A DNA stretch of 64,000 nucleotides from contig NC_134509.1 of assembly GCF_027942865.1 (NCBI RefSeq), positions 6,920,254-6,984,253 on the forward strand, read 5' to 3'. This DNA comes from Odontesthes bonariensis (Eukaryota; Chordata; Actinopteri; Atheriniformes; Atherinopsidae). Below, piece by piece: positions 44,266 through 63,532 of this stretch. Within the stretch, counting starts at the first letter, position 1. Each line of letters starts with the position of its first letter. The translations under genes were made by a program, and so were the position numbers. Under the pieces are notes generated by a model, which saw only the letters and a list, made by a program, of their open reading frames with translations, searched no databases and was not told the DNA's origin.

Positions 44266-47200
44266 GTGAGTCATCTGTATTTGGAAACAGATTATTACTG
44301 ATAATTACTCACTACAATATAGCCTAATGTGCCCCCCCCAGGAACAAGTCCTGCCCCCCTGAGAATAAATGCAAGTGGTGATTTTAAAAAAGCATATATC
44401 TGCAAAGTTTATAGCTTTATTATTTTATTTTTTTTATCGTGTTTACCCGCCTCCGTAAACCTTAACCCCTTGCTGCTGAAAAAAAAGGCGATTTTCACAT
44501 TTTCTGATGTTTTTGTTGTATATAATGATCTGAAATGTAGACTTAATGAAGGTAATAAATAGCTGGAGTTGGCTGGATGTCTTGCCCCAAGTATCTACTT
44601 GAATTTAAACCCTCTGGAGAATGTGGAAGATGTTAATTAAAGTTAAAATTGACGGTCATGATTTATGCTAGTGTGACCATATTTTCATTACCGAATTTAA
44701 TTATTACTATTATTATTATTATTATGCTTGAAGTTGTTGTAGTGGTTTTCCATCGATTTTTTTTTTTTTCAGGTATTGTTTTCTGCCCCCCCAGATGAGC
44801 TAACTGCCCACCCACACATGCCATTCTGGTCACACCTCTGGGGACAAATGATTTGCTCCTTTTTTTAAAATAAATCAATAAATCCAGTGTAGCGCCCTTG
44901 AATAACCTGTGAACCTGCTTACAGTATCTCCCACACTCCTCTCTCTCTGTCTCTTGGCAAAGCACAACTCCTGCAGTGTTTGACTGGGGGGGGGATGGGA
45001 TGGGACAATTAAGAAGAGGACACAGTTGCGCGGAAACTGAATATTTTAATGAGTGGAGTTTTTAAAGTGAAACTGAAAACTGGACATACAAGGACAGAGG
45101 GTGGTGGGTGCTGTTCAATTCAAAGAAACAGTCGCAAACAAAAGATGTCTGTCTTGGATCTGTTCTTGGGTGGTAAAAGCAGGAGGCCCTTTGCTGCCCG
45201 TCCTCTCTTTAGCAGAAGAGATAAGCATACTATAAACTTGGTGTTTATGACGCACAGCAACACGCGGTAGGTTACAGGATAACTAGCAGCAAAGCAATCC
45301 AACTGCTGCAAAGTACAAACCAAGTAAAGCTATAAAGCTTACAGTTAGGGATGGCTCAGGTGATCCTGAAACATCCCATAGTTAAAGGGGAACTCCGGGG
45401 CATTTGAAGCGCATTTCCATTGCTAGAGGTTGTCAAATACTGATAGTAGGACACAGAGAGGTGCAAATCTGCGCTCCCTGTGTGGAGATCGCGCTGTTCG
45501 CACACCCTGTCATGCGAGGCTAATACGTGGTGGCTAAGGGGCAACTGCTAACCCTTCCACGTAAAACAACAACTTGCACACAGCAGAAATGTCACACCAC
45601 TTTATAAACCATCCGACAATAAAGTCACAAGCCTTACCATCAAAACCATATGCATGGTTCTCACATTACTGGCATGGGGACGTTACAAAACAACTTTATA
45701 AACAGCATGTAACTCACGGTTAGTTGTACGCTCGCGCATGTGAAAGCCCAAAAGAGTCGATGGACGATACTCCCATATACAAAACAATTATCTTCTCTAG
45801 AAAAACTGCGTTCAAGTATTTAAAACATTACAACAATATTACTGGGCATGTATTGTTGTAATGTTTTAAATACTTGAACGCAGTTTTTCTAGAGAATATA
45901 ATTGTTTTGTATATGGGATTATCGTCCATCGACTCTTTTGGGCTTTCACATGCGCGAGCCTACAACCAGCCGGTGAGTTACATGCTGTTTATAAAGTTGT
46001 TTTGTAACGTCCCCATGCCAGTAATGTGAGAACCATGCATATGGTTTTGATGGTAAGGCTTGTGACTTTATTGTCGGATGGTTTATAAAGTGGTGTGACG
46101 TTTCTGCAGTGTGCAAGTTGTTGTTTTACGTGGAAGGGTTAGCAGTTGCCCCTTAGCCACCACGTATTAGCCTCGCATGACACGCTGTGCGAACAGCGCG
46201 ATCTCCACACAGGGAGCGCAGATTTGCACCAGTCTGTGTCCTACTATCAGTATTTGACAACCTCTAGCAATGGAAACGCGCTTCAAATGCCCCGGAGTTC
46301 CCCTTTAAAGGGACACTATGTAATAAATTAAGTCATTTATTAGCTCAAATCAACATATTCATTCATAAGTTAGTCCTCATTGGTGTAAAATGATCTCTGT
46401 CAAAAATCTCACTTATCCTCCTGAGTGAAGAATAACTTGTCTGTATCTACATAGAGCAGGTAAGCTCTATGGAGGCTGCCATGTCCTTCTGGTCTATGAA
46501 AAACGACGAAGTGCCGAGAGGGACATAAAGCACTTCGAATCGCGATTTCCCCACCAGGCCTACAAGCGGAAATGACGTCATTGTGACGTCATTTCCGCCA
46601 AATGGCTTATTACAGCCGCTAATGCTAAATAGATTTTATTCCTTGGCACCTATGTCTTTGTGTTCATTGGCTTTCTTTTTGTAAGTGCATCATCTTCTTC
46701 TTTTTATTATTATTCCTATGCTCCCCCTGGCTATCTTCTTTTTGGCGTTATGCTCACATTTGTAAACTGTTATTTTGTTGATTTACTAATAAAGTTTAAA
46801 AAAAAAAAATGCTAAATAGATTTTATCTCGTAAATTATCCCACTAATAATGCATTGATTGTTACCAAACTTCTGCCGTAGTATACATAGGCTCTTAACTC
46901 ACAAAACGAGGCATTAGAAAGTTTGTAAGTTTACCGGGAGTTTATTTACCGCTGCTAATGCTAACGCTGCGTCGACGTCACTTCCGGTAACTCCCGGAAA
47001 ATGACTAATTGCATTGCTTGCACACCAAAGGAGATGTTATGTTATCTGACATGTTATCTGTCATCTGTGTTTATAGTGTTGTTGTATGTGTGTTATGTAA
47101 TCCTTTGTACTGTGTGTCTTGATTTCTTTTTGTTTGTATGGACCTTGAGTCTGAAGCTATAGCTTCTTGAATCTTGACACATTCCGCTTGCCGTAGTTCA

Positions 47201-50200
47201 AGAAGTTGCAGCGCACATTTGAAAACGTGAGGCGCTAGAGAGCAAATTCATTCAACTTTGCAAAATAAAATTGCACCACTAGATGGGGGAAGAAATTACA
47301 TAATGTCCCTTTAAGCTGCAATAGGCCCAGACTGCTGGGGGGCCTCATCTGTCACACCTTTCCTCACTTTACTCTCTTTTTCCCCCCGTTTAATTTCTGA
47401 AATGATATTATGTAGATGTGACATGACTGTGGTCATTAACTCGTGTTTCCCTGTTCCAACAGGTGTCCTTTGAATGGTGTTACAGTGTTTTTTTTTCCCC
47501 CCTTTTCTGTCCTCTCAAACCCCAGCTGGTCAAGGCCACCCTTCCTGGTTCTGGTTCTGCCAGAGGTTTCTTCCTGTTAAAAGGGAGTCGTTTCTCTCCA
47601 CAGTCGCCTCAGGCACGCTCAGGACGGGAGATTGGACTGAAGACAAGTTTCGTTGCAATATCTTGGTTTCCTTAGCTCGGAAATTGTTTTTGAATTGGCT
47701 TTATATGAATTAATTGCATTATTTTGAAAAAAATTATGATTACAATGAATTGAATTCCAATTGGCTTGAATTGGACTTTATTATTTAAGTGCCTTGAGAT
47801 GACATTTGTTGTATTTGGCGTTAAATAAATAAATAAAAATGAATTGAATTGAAGTACCAGGCTATAAGTAACTTAAAGAATTTCTCGACTGCTGCTCTGC
47901 TCTAATAAAATCTTGATTTTTATACCCGTAGTATAATCTGACAAGACCCCAATTCAAGTAACTTAAAGGCAGCATCCGTGCAGTGAATTCGGCTGTACAT
48001 GTATGTATGATCGCCCGCAGACAAAGTTAGAGGCAGCAGACTGTCCTGAAACGTTTTTTTTTTTTTTTTTTTTCTTTCAGTCCACTGTCTTGCAGTGTCA
48101 GACATTCTTGGGTTAATAATTTAATTTTGCTCCCACATATGTATACATTATCAGTCTAATTGAATGGCCAAATTGAGCTATAAGCGTTGCCAAACTCAGC
48201 TTTGCATGTACTCCTGCTAACTGATAGGCTGAGCAGGAACCTAATAAAAAGAAGAAGAAGAAAACTTGCTCGTGCGACAGAATCAGATACGGTTAGCTTA
48301 GTTGGAAGAAAAAGGAGTGCAGCGGCCCAGAGTTGTAACACTTTAATAGGGCAGTTTAATTCAGTAGCACTTTATTGCTAAGCAACTAAATGCATCGTCA
48401 CACATTCATATTATTTCTATCCTTCCCAGCTCATTTGAATGCTTTCATCCATTTTCCACAGCTGACGCAAGATAAGATTGCGTGCCTGCCCAGCCGCTTC
48501 ACCAGCCCAACACCTGAGGCAATCAACTGCAGCCACATCCGCAACTACAGGGATAACGAGACGTCACAGAGCACGCTGGCCAAGCCCGTGAGCCCCATCA
48601 TTCGGGAGGTGTTTGGCAACAAGAACAATCTAGACATTCACCAATATATATTTGTCAACCACTACTGTTACGAGACGTCTGTGCACTGGTATGCAAAGTA
48701 CTTCCCGTACCTTGTTGTGATCCACACTATGATCTTCATGATCGCGAGCAGCTTCTGGTTCAAATTCCCTGGCACCTCTTCTAAAATTGACCTATTTGTC
48801 ATCATTCTGGGGAAGTGCTTCGATTCGCCTTGGACCACGAGGGCCTTGAGTGAAGTCTCTGAGGAAAGGGGAGAAGAAAAGCTGGTCAGCTTGAGGAGGA
48901 ATAACATGTCAAAGGATTCTGCCGAACGAGGAGAAGATGAGGAGGAGACGGTAGGGCTTCTTCGCTCCTCCTCTGTCAAGTCTAATCCGGAAAAGAAAAT
49001 GCCAGAACCCCAGTCTGCCCCCTCCGTGTTGGACAAGAAGGAAGGAGAGCAGGCCAAAGCTCTTTTCGAAAAGGTGAAGAAGTTTCGGACCCACGTGGAG
49101 GAGGCGGACATCTTGTATCATATGTATGTGCTACAGACGTCGCTGAAAGTCTTCAAGTTCGTCGTTATCATCATCTACACTGCAGTGCTGGCACCAAACA
49201 TTGAAATAGTTGTGCGCTGTTGTGTTCCTCCGGACTTGACTGGCTTCGATATTTATTGCTGTAACCACAACAAAGCCCATCTTTTTTCCAAGCTTGCCTA
49301 CTGCTACATCTGCTTCGTGGGAGTGTATGGACTCATGTGCATCTACACCCTCTACTGGCTGTTCCATCGGTCTCTGAAGGAGTACTCCTTTGAGCAGGTC
49401 AGATTTGAGATGGGTATTAACGACATACCGGATGTGAAGAACGACTTTGCTTTCCTTCTGCACCTCGTGGACCAGTACGATGCTCTGTACTCTAGAAGGT
49501 TTGCCGTCTTTCTGTCTGAAGTCAGCGAGAGCCGCCTCTATCAACTCAATCTCAACTACGAGTGGACGGACAAAAAGCTGCGCGCCCGTCTCACCAAGAA
49601 CTCCAGCGACAGGCTGGAGCTCCACCTCCTAATGTTGCCAGGGCTTCCGGACACAGTCTTTGAGATTGCTGAGGTGGAATCCCTCAAACTGGAGCAAGTT
49701 AACAATGTCACCATCCCAGCTGGCGTGGCAAAGCTGGACTCTCTGCAAGAGTTATCATTGATCTACAGCCCAGCAAAACTACAGCTGCCTGCGCTGAACC
49801 ACCTCAAGGAGCGTTTAAAGGTTCTGCGTCTGGCTTTCGAGAGTTTAGAGGAGGTCCCTGTGTGGATGTATTCCCTTCACGGCCTGGAGGAGTTGCATCT
49901 GAATGGTCCTTTAACCAATGAGGTGTACAGAAGTAGCACTCTGGAATCCCTCCGAGAGCTCAGAGCTTTAAGACTCCTCACCCTCCGCTCCAACCTGAGT
50001 AAGATCCCACCCTGTGTGGGGGATATCGCATCACAGTTGCAGCGGTTGTGCATCAACAACGAAGGGGTCAAGCTCCAAGCTTTTAGCAGCTTGAAGAAGC
50101 TTACTAGCCTAGCTTCGTTAGAGTTGGTGGGCTGTGAACTGGAACGCATCCCAAGTGCCGTCTTCAGCCTGAACAACCTGCAGGAGTTGGACCTGAGGGA

Positions 50201-52060: not shown

Positions 52061-52425
52061 GAAATCTGTAGCTCCCTCTGAAGCCTGTAATCATGCTTGC
52101 AAAAATCGAGCGCTCCCGGCTGTTTTTAACCAATCAAGTTAGGGTGGAGGAATCCTACCTGTCAATCACAGCTTGTGCACACGCTGCTGAGCGTGAGTCT
52201 GCCCCAGCTTGTGTGCGTTCACAGAGGGGGAGGGGTTTGGGGGGCGATTCGGAGCTTGTTAGAGGTTGGGGAAGGGACCTGAAAGTTGTATCAGTTCAAA
52301 TTCTCCGACTTTAGACTCGGAATTTTGAAAACTTGCCGACTGCAGCTTTAAGGTGAAAAGGATGAATCTTTTTTTTCAAGATAACGCACATGAGAGTGTG
52401 GTGCCACCAGAACTGCAGCATTTAA

Positions 52426-53036
52426 AGGGATAGTTCGCCTCTTTTGACATGAAGCTGAATGACATCCCATATTAGCAATATCATTTATGAACATGTTCTT
52501 ACCCCCCGCTGCGTCCTGTGAGCCGAGTTCCAGCCTCGTTTTGGCGTTGACGAAGGTAGTCCGGCTAGTTGGCTGGGGTTTAAAAAATAAAGCGTCTTGC
52601 TTCTCAAAACAATATGCGTTCAAAAGAGTAATACATTTGCATCACAAAATCGTTCATCCAGAAAAAGTCAGAGCTCACATCGCTTGGCGCTATTTTTGCC
52701 TCCCTTGATATCAATGCGTCCAGCGACCTAGCGATAGCTGCACCTGTTACTGTGTTTACTGCTCAGAAGCAGCGGACTGCTCGGTCTGCACAGCACGCAG
52801 TGATACGAAGGTAGAGAGAAAATAGCACCAAGCGATTGTGAGGTCTGATTTTTTTTTTTTCTGGATGAACGATTTTGTGATACAAATGTATTACTCTTTT
52901 GAACGCATATTGTTTTGAGAAGCAAAACGTTTTATTTTGCGACCCCAGCCAACTAGCTGGACTACCTTCGTCAACACCAAAACTCAGCTGGAACTCGGCT
53001 CACAGGACGCAGCAGGGGGTAAGAACATGTTCATAA
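52426..53036. mobile_element. TTAA foldback element, right end truncated
   Basis: Starts AGGGATAGTTCGCC after TTAA (52422-52425). The left arm from about 52480 (GAACATGTTCTTACCCCC onward) is complementary to the right arm ending at about 53036 (GGGGGTAAGAACATGTTCAT). Inner segments around 52600-52690 and 52805-52920 also pair. The outermost 55-60 bp of the right arm, including its terminal repeat and TTAA, is missing. Confidence 0.8.
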
Positions 53037-61256: not shown

Positions 61257-61353
61257 CTAAACACAATACAAGAAATCAACGTTCAACTCCTGGCCAAAAA
61301 AAAAATGGAATCACCCACATTTGGAAGAAGTTCACTCAACTACTTTTATTCAA

Positions 61354-61913
61354 AGGGGAACTGTGGTATTTCCAACATTAAGCCTCTTTTCTGAGTCGTC
61401 TGCAATGTTTTAGAACCCCCCTCACCGCTTTTTTGATGTTTACTGCTGTCTCCGGTATTTGCCTAATTTTGATTCTTCTCAACCTGCTTCAGAACGGCAA
61501 GTCATGCGCATGTCCTAAAAGGTCCGTAAAAGCACCATAAACGTCCGTTTTCAAAATAATCAACTCACCGGAGTGGTTACTGGTGTGCACTGGTAATCCA
61601 TATCAAATTTCGTGCCGAAAAGTTGCTTCTGTCGTGTTTTATTTGACATTTTGTACTGGATGTTCGTTGATATTACTCCGCCACCGCGAAGAAAATAGTG
61701 CGAGCATGAACGAGCTGCCAAATAAAACACGACAGAAGCAACTTTTCGCAACGAAATTTGATATGGATTACCAGTGCACACCAGTAACCACTCCGGTGAG
61801 TTGATTAGTTTGAAAACGGACGTTTAAACATCAAAAAAGCGGTGAGGGGGGTTCTAAAACATTGCAGACGACTCAGAAAAGAGGCTTAATGTTGAAAATA
61901 CCACAGTTCACCT
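61354..61913. mobile_element. TTAA foldback element with AGGGGAACTGTGG ends
   Basis: Outer arms of about 88 bp (left AGGGGAACTGTGGTATTTCC; right its complement with about two changes) and inner arms of about 105 bp pair around a central loop near 61650-61715. The left arm carries about 100 extra bases (61444-61545) missing on the right. Flanks are TCAA (61350-61353) and TTAA (61914-61917), a duplication with one substitution. The palindrome gives the same short peptide frame from both strands. Confidence 0.85.
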
Positions 61914-62613
61914 TTAACAGAGAAAAGAGATAATCACAGAGGTGACATAGAATTAATTTATTTAGCAGCTGAACACTCTGACTTTGTAAAAAATATACCT
62001 AAAATGATTTTTAATAAAATTGTCGGAATGACATTTTGATGAAAAAATGAAAAAATATGGAATTGTGAAACACACCATTGTTAGTACTTTGTTGCAGCTC
62101 CTCTTGCCTTTAGGACAACTTGAATTCTGAGCGGCGTGGGCTTCGCTAATCAAAAATAATGCTCATCATTTAAGTTCCAACTTGCTCGAACAGCAGATGA
62201 CAGATTAGCTTTGAAGGATTTAGGCAATTTTCAGATGAAGTAGAGGGAAAGAAACGTAATCACCCTGTAACTTGCATTTCTAAAACAAATATCCGCACAT
62301 GCAAATGAGTCTGCAGTCAACAGAGAGCGCTCGCAGAGCCTAAAGACCTGCTGCACCCGACTGAGTGGCAGGAAACGGCCCAAACAAGAGAGCTGTCCGC
62401 TGAAATAATGGAAAGAATTTTAAAACTCCTTCAACAAGGTCATTCGACACAGAGTAAAGTAAGGCAAAAGACGTTGGTTGTTCCCAGTCAGCTGTGTCCA
62501 AAATGTGGGGCAAGTACAAACAAAATGGGAAGGTTGTAAAAAGGGAAACATAAAGATCGACAAAGAAAGATGTCAATATGTCAGCACAGAAAACTCAAAG
62601 CAACATGCCTTAA

Positions 62614-63532
62614 AGGGGAACTCCGGGGCATTTGAAGCGCGTTTCCATTGCTAGAGGTTGTCAAATAATGATAGTAGGACACAGAGAGGTGCAAATCTGC
62701 GCTCCCTGTGTGGAGATCGCGCTGTTCGCACAGCGTGTCATGCGAGGCTAATACGTGGTGGCTAAGGGGCAACTGCTAACCCTTCCACGTAAAACAACAA
62801 CTTGCACACTGCAGAAACGTCACACCACTTTATAAAGCATCCGACAATAAAGTCACAAGCCTTACCATCAAAACCATATGCATGGTTCTCACATTACTGG
62901 CATGGGGACGTTACAAAACAACTTTATAAACAGCATGTCACTTACCTCTTGTTGGTACGCTCGCGCATGTGAAAGCCCAAAAGAGTCAATGGACGATACT
63001 CCCATATACAAAACAATTATATTCTCTAGAAAAACTGCGTTCAAGTATTTAAAACATTACAACAATACATGCCCAGTAATATTGTTGTAATGTTTTAAAT
63101 ACTTGAACACAGTTTTTCTAGAGAATATAATTGTTTTGTATATGGGATTATCGTCCATCGACTCTTTTGGGCTTTCACATGCGCGAGCCTACAACCAGCC
63201 GGTGAGTTACATGCTGTTTATAAAGTTGTTTTGTAACGTCCCCATGCCAGTAATGTGAGAACCATGCATATGGTTTTGATGGTAAGGCTTGTGACTTTAT
63301 TGTCGGATGGTTTATAAAGTGGTGTGACGTTCTGCAGTGTGCAAGTTGTTGTTTTACGTGGAAGGTTTAGCACTTGCCCCTTAGCCACCACGTATTTGGT
63401 TAGCATGACAGGCTGCGCAAACAGCGCTATCTCCACACAGGGAGCGCAGATTTGCACCAGTCTGTGTCCTACTGTCAGTATTTGACAACCTCTAGCAATG
63501 GGATTGCGCTTCAAATGCCCCGGAGTTCCCCT
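62614..63532. mobile_element. 919-bp palindromic TTAA foldback element, copy 2 (ap1m2 intron)
   Basis: Same family and the same total length as 45386-46304. Left arm 62614-63066, loop ACATGCCCAGTAAT (63067-63080), right arm 63081-63532. TTAA flanks at 62610-62613 and 63533-63536. It interrupts the Tc1 transposase remnant. The loop is the reverse complement of that in copy 1, while arm-specific bases keep the same left-right order. Confidence 0.93.

Follow-up and report, generated by a model that had tools for sequence, protein, structure and literature searches.

The window, by which we mean the whole stretch of 64,000 nt that was analyzed, has a G+C content of 41.5%, carries CpG at 0.52 of expectation, and codes for a rhodopsin-type receptor, a BTB-BACK-Kelch protein, an LRRC8-type protein (Pannexin_like plus LRR), and a reverse transcriptase. 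Gene content and base composition suggest a vertebrate source, probably a fish. It also holds two palindromes of 919 bp each, element A (45386-46304) and element B (62614-63532), whose parts are listed in Table 1. Both elements start with AGGGGAACTCCGGGG and end with its reverse complement, and their arms pair over about 453 bp. Between the left and right arms, 13 of 453 alignment columns differ in A and 30 of 453 in B. When A was compared with the window by blastn, the matches were A and B only, each in both orientations and with 95.5 to 96.2% identity; the 64-kb window contains two full copies, and blastn shows no additional fragment. The 200-base flanks beyond the TTAA sites had only weak local similarity (best local scores of 8 to 12.5 in 4 comparisons, run without a shuffled control), and we therefore read A and B as separate insertions. 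A previous sequence-only reading of this DNA had described both palindromes, and its coordinates, its length of 919 bp, the palindromic architecture, and the reverse-complement loops were all found again in the sequence.

Table 1. Parts of elements A and B, with their target-site copies and the largest stretches open to inversion
Feature	Start	End	Strand
TTAA, left target-site copy of element A	45382	45385	.
Left arm of element A, 452 bp, starts AGGGGAACTCCGGGG	45386	45837	.
Largest stretch of A open to flip: loop plus 67 bp per side	45771	45918	.
14-nt loop of element A, ATTACTGGGCATGT; unpaired core 45839-45850	45838	45851	.
Right arm of element A, 453 bp	45852	46304	.
TTAA, right target-site copy of A, also left TTAA of the adjoining element 46305-47314	46305	46308	.
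TTAA, left target-site copy of element B	62610	62613	.
Left arm of element B, 453 bp	62614	63066	.
Largest stretch of B open to flip, counterpart of 45771-45918	63000	63147	.
14-nt loop of element B, ACATGCCCAGTAAT; unpaired core 63068-63079	63067	63080	.
Right arm of element B, 452 bp	63081	63532	.
TTAA, right target-site copy of element B	63533	63536	.

The defining marks of T2-MITEs, a TTAA target together with AGGRR at the terminus, are Kolobok features (PMC6004289), and Kolobok ends read 5'-RR and YY-3', in contrast to those of piggyBac (PMC9587614). TTAA directly adjoins both sides of A and of B, as at Kolobok-type target sites, and AGGGG stands at all four ends, in agreement with AGGRR as well as with the 5'-RR/YY-3' pattern. 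The nine terminal letters of both copies, AGGGGAACT, are those of Xenopus XKol A5, AGGGGAACTATCATGA (Table 5 of PMC6004289), and the ends diverge beyond these 9 nt. No stop-to-stop frame of at least 130 aa overlaps A or B in any of the six frames (standard stops), and both elements combine the inverted ends, the short length, and the lack of coding capacity, at that frame length, that characterize MITEs. The resemblance to T2-MITE/Kolobok elements extends to the TTAA target, the AGGRR terminus, the 5'-RR and YY-3' ends, and the lack of a long open reading frame (PMC6004289, PMC9587614), and A and B differ from these elements in that nearly the entire element is one palindrome. We rejected an assignment to piggyBac, which shares the TTAA target, because the ends of A and B (AG...CT) are of the Kolobok type (PMC9587614). 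By these sequence features, A and B look like non-autonomous MITEs with T2/Kolobok-type ends; the family assignment is inferred, and a transposase encoded elsewhere would mobilize them. Searches with exact patterns of the inner stem, the loop being left free, and of the outermost 27 nt each gave 0 matches in viral contigs and 0 in prokaryotic genome contigs, which is uninformative for the host lineage. Work by Izsvak et al. in 1999 reportedly dealt with short palindromic TTAA-type inverted-repeat elements of teleost fish and discussed them as hairpin-forming; those elements are said to be shorter than A and B.

The 14-nt loop of B is the exact reverse complement of that of A. Since the A and T at the two ends of the loop can pair, the unpaired and truly inverted core measures 12 nt. 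By our own arithmetic, an exact 12-nt reverse-complement match is expected by chance at 4 to the power -12 per comparison, so the likeness of the two loops is beyond chance. Folded as DNA, the inner 148 nt of A and of B each form a single hairpin of -69.5 and -67.2 kcal/mol, respectively (z of -22.2 and -25.2 relative to shuffles, with 0 of 200 shuffles equally stable), in which pairing beside the loop is unbroken over 45 bp of stem in A and over 28 bp in B. A loop replaced by its reverse complement with its length conserved, and perfect arms beside it, are two of the marks of a template-switch spacer inversion, and both are present here. The idea that the center of the palindrome is quieter than the rest was rejected, as 2 variable columns among the inner 67 did not differ significantly from 34 among the 386 outside (Fisher p 0.14). 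As a separate observation, the loop sequence ATTACTGGGCATG (45838-45850) resembles an arm motif, ATTACTGGCATG (45665-45676), apart from one extra G in the loop, and when the letters of the arm were simply shuffled, 14 of 5,000 shuffles scored as high; this likeness would fit an origin of the loop as a copy of the arm motif, or a protein site shared by the two.

The sequence-only reading had further held that only the center is flipped and that the arms are unswapped. We aligned the four arms of A and B over 453 columns, numbered from 0 at the outer end toward the loop. The alignment has 36 variable columns, 7 of which are phase-informative. Five of these (columns 72, 73, 335, 344, and 385) are same-side, grouping left with left and right with right, and two (columns 27 and 121) are swapped, grouping left with right across the copies. 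Going inward from the ends toward the loop, the columns are in turn swapped (27), same (72 and 73), swapped (121), and same (335, 344, and 385), and then the loop is flipped. The arm markers that had been quoted are correct in both copies, but the arms are unswapped at only five of the seven informative columns. Since the nearest same-side marker shared by the copies is column 385, the inverted piece measures between 12 and 148 nt. Of the columns private to one arm, 14 belong to the right arm of B, 9 to its left arm, 6 to the left arm of A, and none to the right arm of A. Over their full length, A and B match at 880 of 922 columns in direct and at 881 of 920 in inverted alignment, which favors neither orientation.

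We compared quartet likelihoods of the four arms under a Jukes-Cantor model. The same-side tree (lnL -841.07) was ahead of the swapped tree (-852.95) by 11.9 lnL units, while the within-copy tree was no better than the star (both -856.71). When columns were bootstrapped, 8,325 of 10,000 replicates had a same-side majority (846 swapped, 829 ties), and when blocks were bootstrapped, 8,012 of 10,000 did (1,158 swapped, 830 ties), so that swapped and tied replicates together make up 17 to 20%. Differences specific to B form three clusters (columns 27-30, 104-135, and 325-340); the contrary columns 27 and 121 fall within or border on them, as does column 335, which is on the same-side count. Around columns 27 and 121 it is the right arm of B that is unusually divergent, and column 27 is a CpG/CpA site. 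Two of the clusters, columns 325-340 in the left arm of B (62938-62954) and columns 104-135 in its right arm (63397-63428), have the look of multinucleotide mutations or of tracts derived from another subfamily. When the three clusters, picked after the data had been viewed, were left out, 4 same-side columns and 0 swapped ones remained. In 20,000 runs of a star-tree simulation, whose rates were set by us and which ignores clustering and CpG effects, at least 4 same-side columns never arose, and at least 2 swapped columns arose in 1.3%. Together, the sequence data moderately support that the source element was asymmetric and that its polarity persists in the arms of A and B but not in the loop.

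In none of the 36 variable columns do both arms of one element agree with each other and differ from those of the other element, the pattern that within-copy homogenization of arms would leave. This count disfavors frequent arm-to-arm conversion since insertion, and we rejected frequent gene conversion between the arms after insertion on these grounds. Template switching between arms often homogenizes them, and the absence of homogenized columns also counts against such switching here.

We consider it probable that A and B are two insertions of one palindromic MITE family in which the center has been inverted once between the arms. The source element would have been asymmetric, which would make its left and right arms distinguishable at five of the seven informative columns, and the inversion would have taken place in the lineage of one copy or in the source element; the flip may thus lie in A or in B and may have preceded or followed insertion. 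A replication fork meeting the near-perfect palindrome could let the nascent strand switch within the stem to the other strand, copy the loop in the opposite sense, and switch back in the second arm. Recombination or crossing-over between the two arms would be an alternative route to the same product, indistinguishable here from strand switching. Because the stem is perfect on both sides of the loop, neither event would be visible anywhere but in the loop itself. The two arm columns that disagree would reflect a few further exchanges, recurrent mutation, or variation within the family, and the 1.3% chance rate of at least two swapped columns in the simulation counts against the explanation. 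An inversion of the center alone between the arms, as the sequence-only reading had it, is the natural cause of the conflict between the center and most arm markers and is supported by the favored same-side tree; that reading goes too far in treating the arms as wholly unswapped. It had also offered hairpin processing during transposition as a possible cause, for which we found no evidence for or against and which remains a guess, and its term "flip-flop" implies a recurrence beyond what two copies show, namely, at least one event. No function is implied by the orientation of the loop.

Other histories could have left the same discordance. The center of one copy might have been overwritten by conversion or crossing-over with an oppositely oriented copy of the family, or with a sister chromatid in flipped register, given that the orientation of the partner is no obstacle to pairing when a palindrome is perfect. 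The divergent patches of B (columns 27-30, 104-135, and 325-340) do resemble imported tracts, but they are distant from the loop, no donor tract is recognizable among the inner 67 columns with their 2 of the 36 variable positions, and a second partner is required; we regard overwriting as unlikely. It is also quite unlikely, in our judgment, that the hairpin tip inverts often during replication or mobilization, to the point where the loop is oriented independently of the arms and transposition propagates either state. The true polarity might instead be that of the loop, B having inserted opposite to A and the markers at columns 72/73, 335, 344, and 385 having switched sides by arm exchange or varying within the family. 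Columns 27 and 121 are concordant with the loop under such an insertion, the inverted alignment is as good as the direct one, and the arm phase alternates several times from end to center. More changes are needed, however, with five informative columns to be explained rather than two and a likelihood 11.9 lnL units lower, and both contrary columns sit in divergent patches of B, which makes an opposite insertion distinctly improbable.

An error in the orientation of one loop, arising in assembly or cloning, has to be weighed as well. A graph assembler may traverse a hairpin loop either way, bacterial hosts rearrange long palindromes, and k-mers shorter than the perfect stem beside the loop (45 bp in A, 28 bp in B) cannot fix the sense of the loop. 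Copy-specific mismatches nevertheless occur at the 46th pair from the loop in A and at the 29th in B (columns 407 and 424), and spanning reads of about 60 nt or more for A, or 43 nt or more for B, fix the orientation of the loop, so that we hold such an artifact to be very unlikely.

A single inversion between near-identical arms has described counterparts. In yeast coding genes, ten spacer inversions were reported, and in nine the repeats were perfect beforehand (Abraham and Hazkani-Covo 2021, PMC8604942), and spacer flips at SPO75 and YBZ1 are reversible (PMC8604942). For rRNA, 69 clusters fit loop inversion alone, and one case is known at MIR633 (PMC8794818); the four-point model supplies the wider framework of template switching (PMC7954356). 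As in A and B, the yeast spacer is the exact reverse complement between perfect arms, which are otherwise unaltered in 9 of the 10 cases, and the flips there can recur and revert (PMC8604942). The yeast cases differ in that they concern orthologous loci, with arms of about 10 to 16 bp in some table rows and spacers of a few bp (PMC8604942), whereas A and B are two different transposon insertions in which arms of about 450 bp enclose a core of 12 nt. The rRNA and microRNA inversions likewise keep the length of the loop and leave the stem intact, and they are ascribed to strand switching; unlike here, ancestral states were reconstructed, and the loops described are mostly of 4 nt, with lengths up to 7 to 8 nt (PMC8794818). 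The 12-nt spacer of A and B exceeds the inverted spacers given in these accounts for yeast (2 to 5 substitutions) and rRNA (7 to 8 nt), which counts against an inversion of this kind here (PMC8604942, PMC8794818). The flip is most likely one instance of this already described class of mutation, and in the open-licence PMC literature we found no report of loop or spacer inversion in long palindromic MITEs. The discordance between A and B is real, small, and well defined, and it offers a useful lead toward counting flips across the family. Should the family prove numerous, every copy would record independently whether its hairpin tip has flipped, and together the copies would allow the frequency of strand switching inside long near-perfect palindromes to be measured in an animal genome; such switching is difficult to count by other means, since an inversion between perfect arms has no further sign. 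Were frequent flipping true, the family would naturally register, across the whole genome, how often hairpins mediate strand switching in the animal germ line.

Further inverted repeats lie in the window. A second TTAA-type element (46305-47314) abuts A and has the ends AGGGACACTATGTAAT and AGGGACATTATGTAAT, 16 of whose first 20 letters match; as the TTAA at their junction is common to both, one of the two was inserted into the TTAA of the other. The palindromic element at 61352-61915 has the left terminus AGGGGAACT, the same nine letters as in A and B, and the right terminus AGGTGAACT, with TCAA and TTAA as flanks. At 52422-53036, an imperfect palindrome whose left side starts with TTAA AGGGATAGTTCGCC, and for which no matching right end was seen, is perhaps one more TTAA/AGGRR element. 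Finally, the segment 24844-25228 contains an A+T-rich inverted repeat with 67-nt arms that are 96% complementary and lie 251 nt apart.
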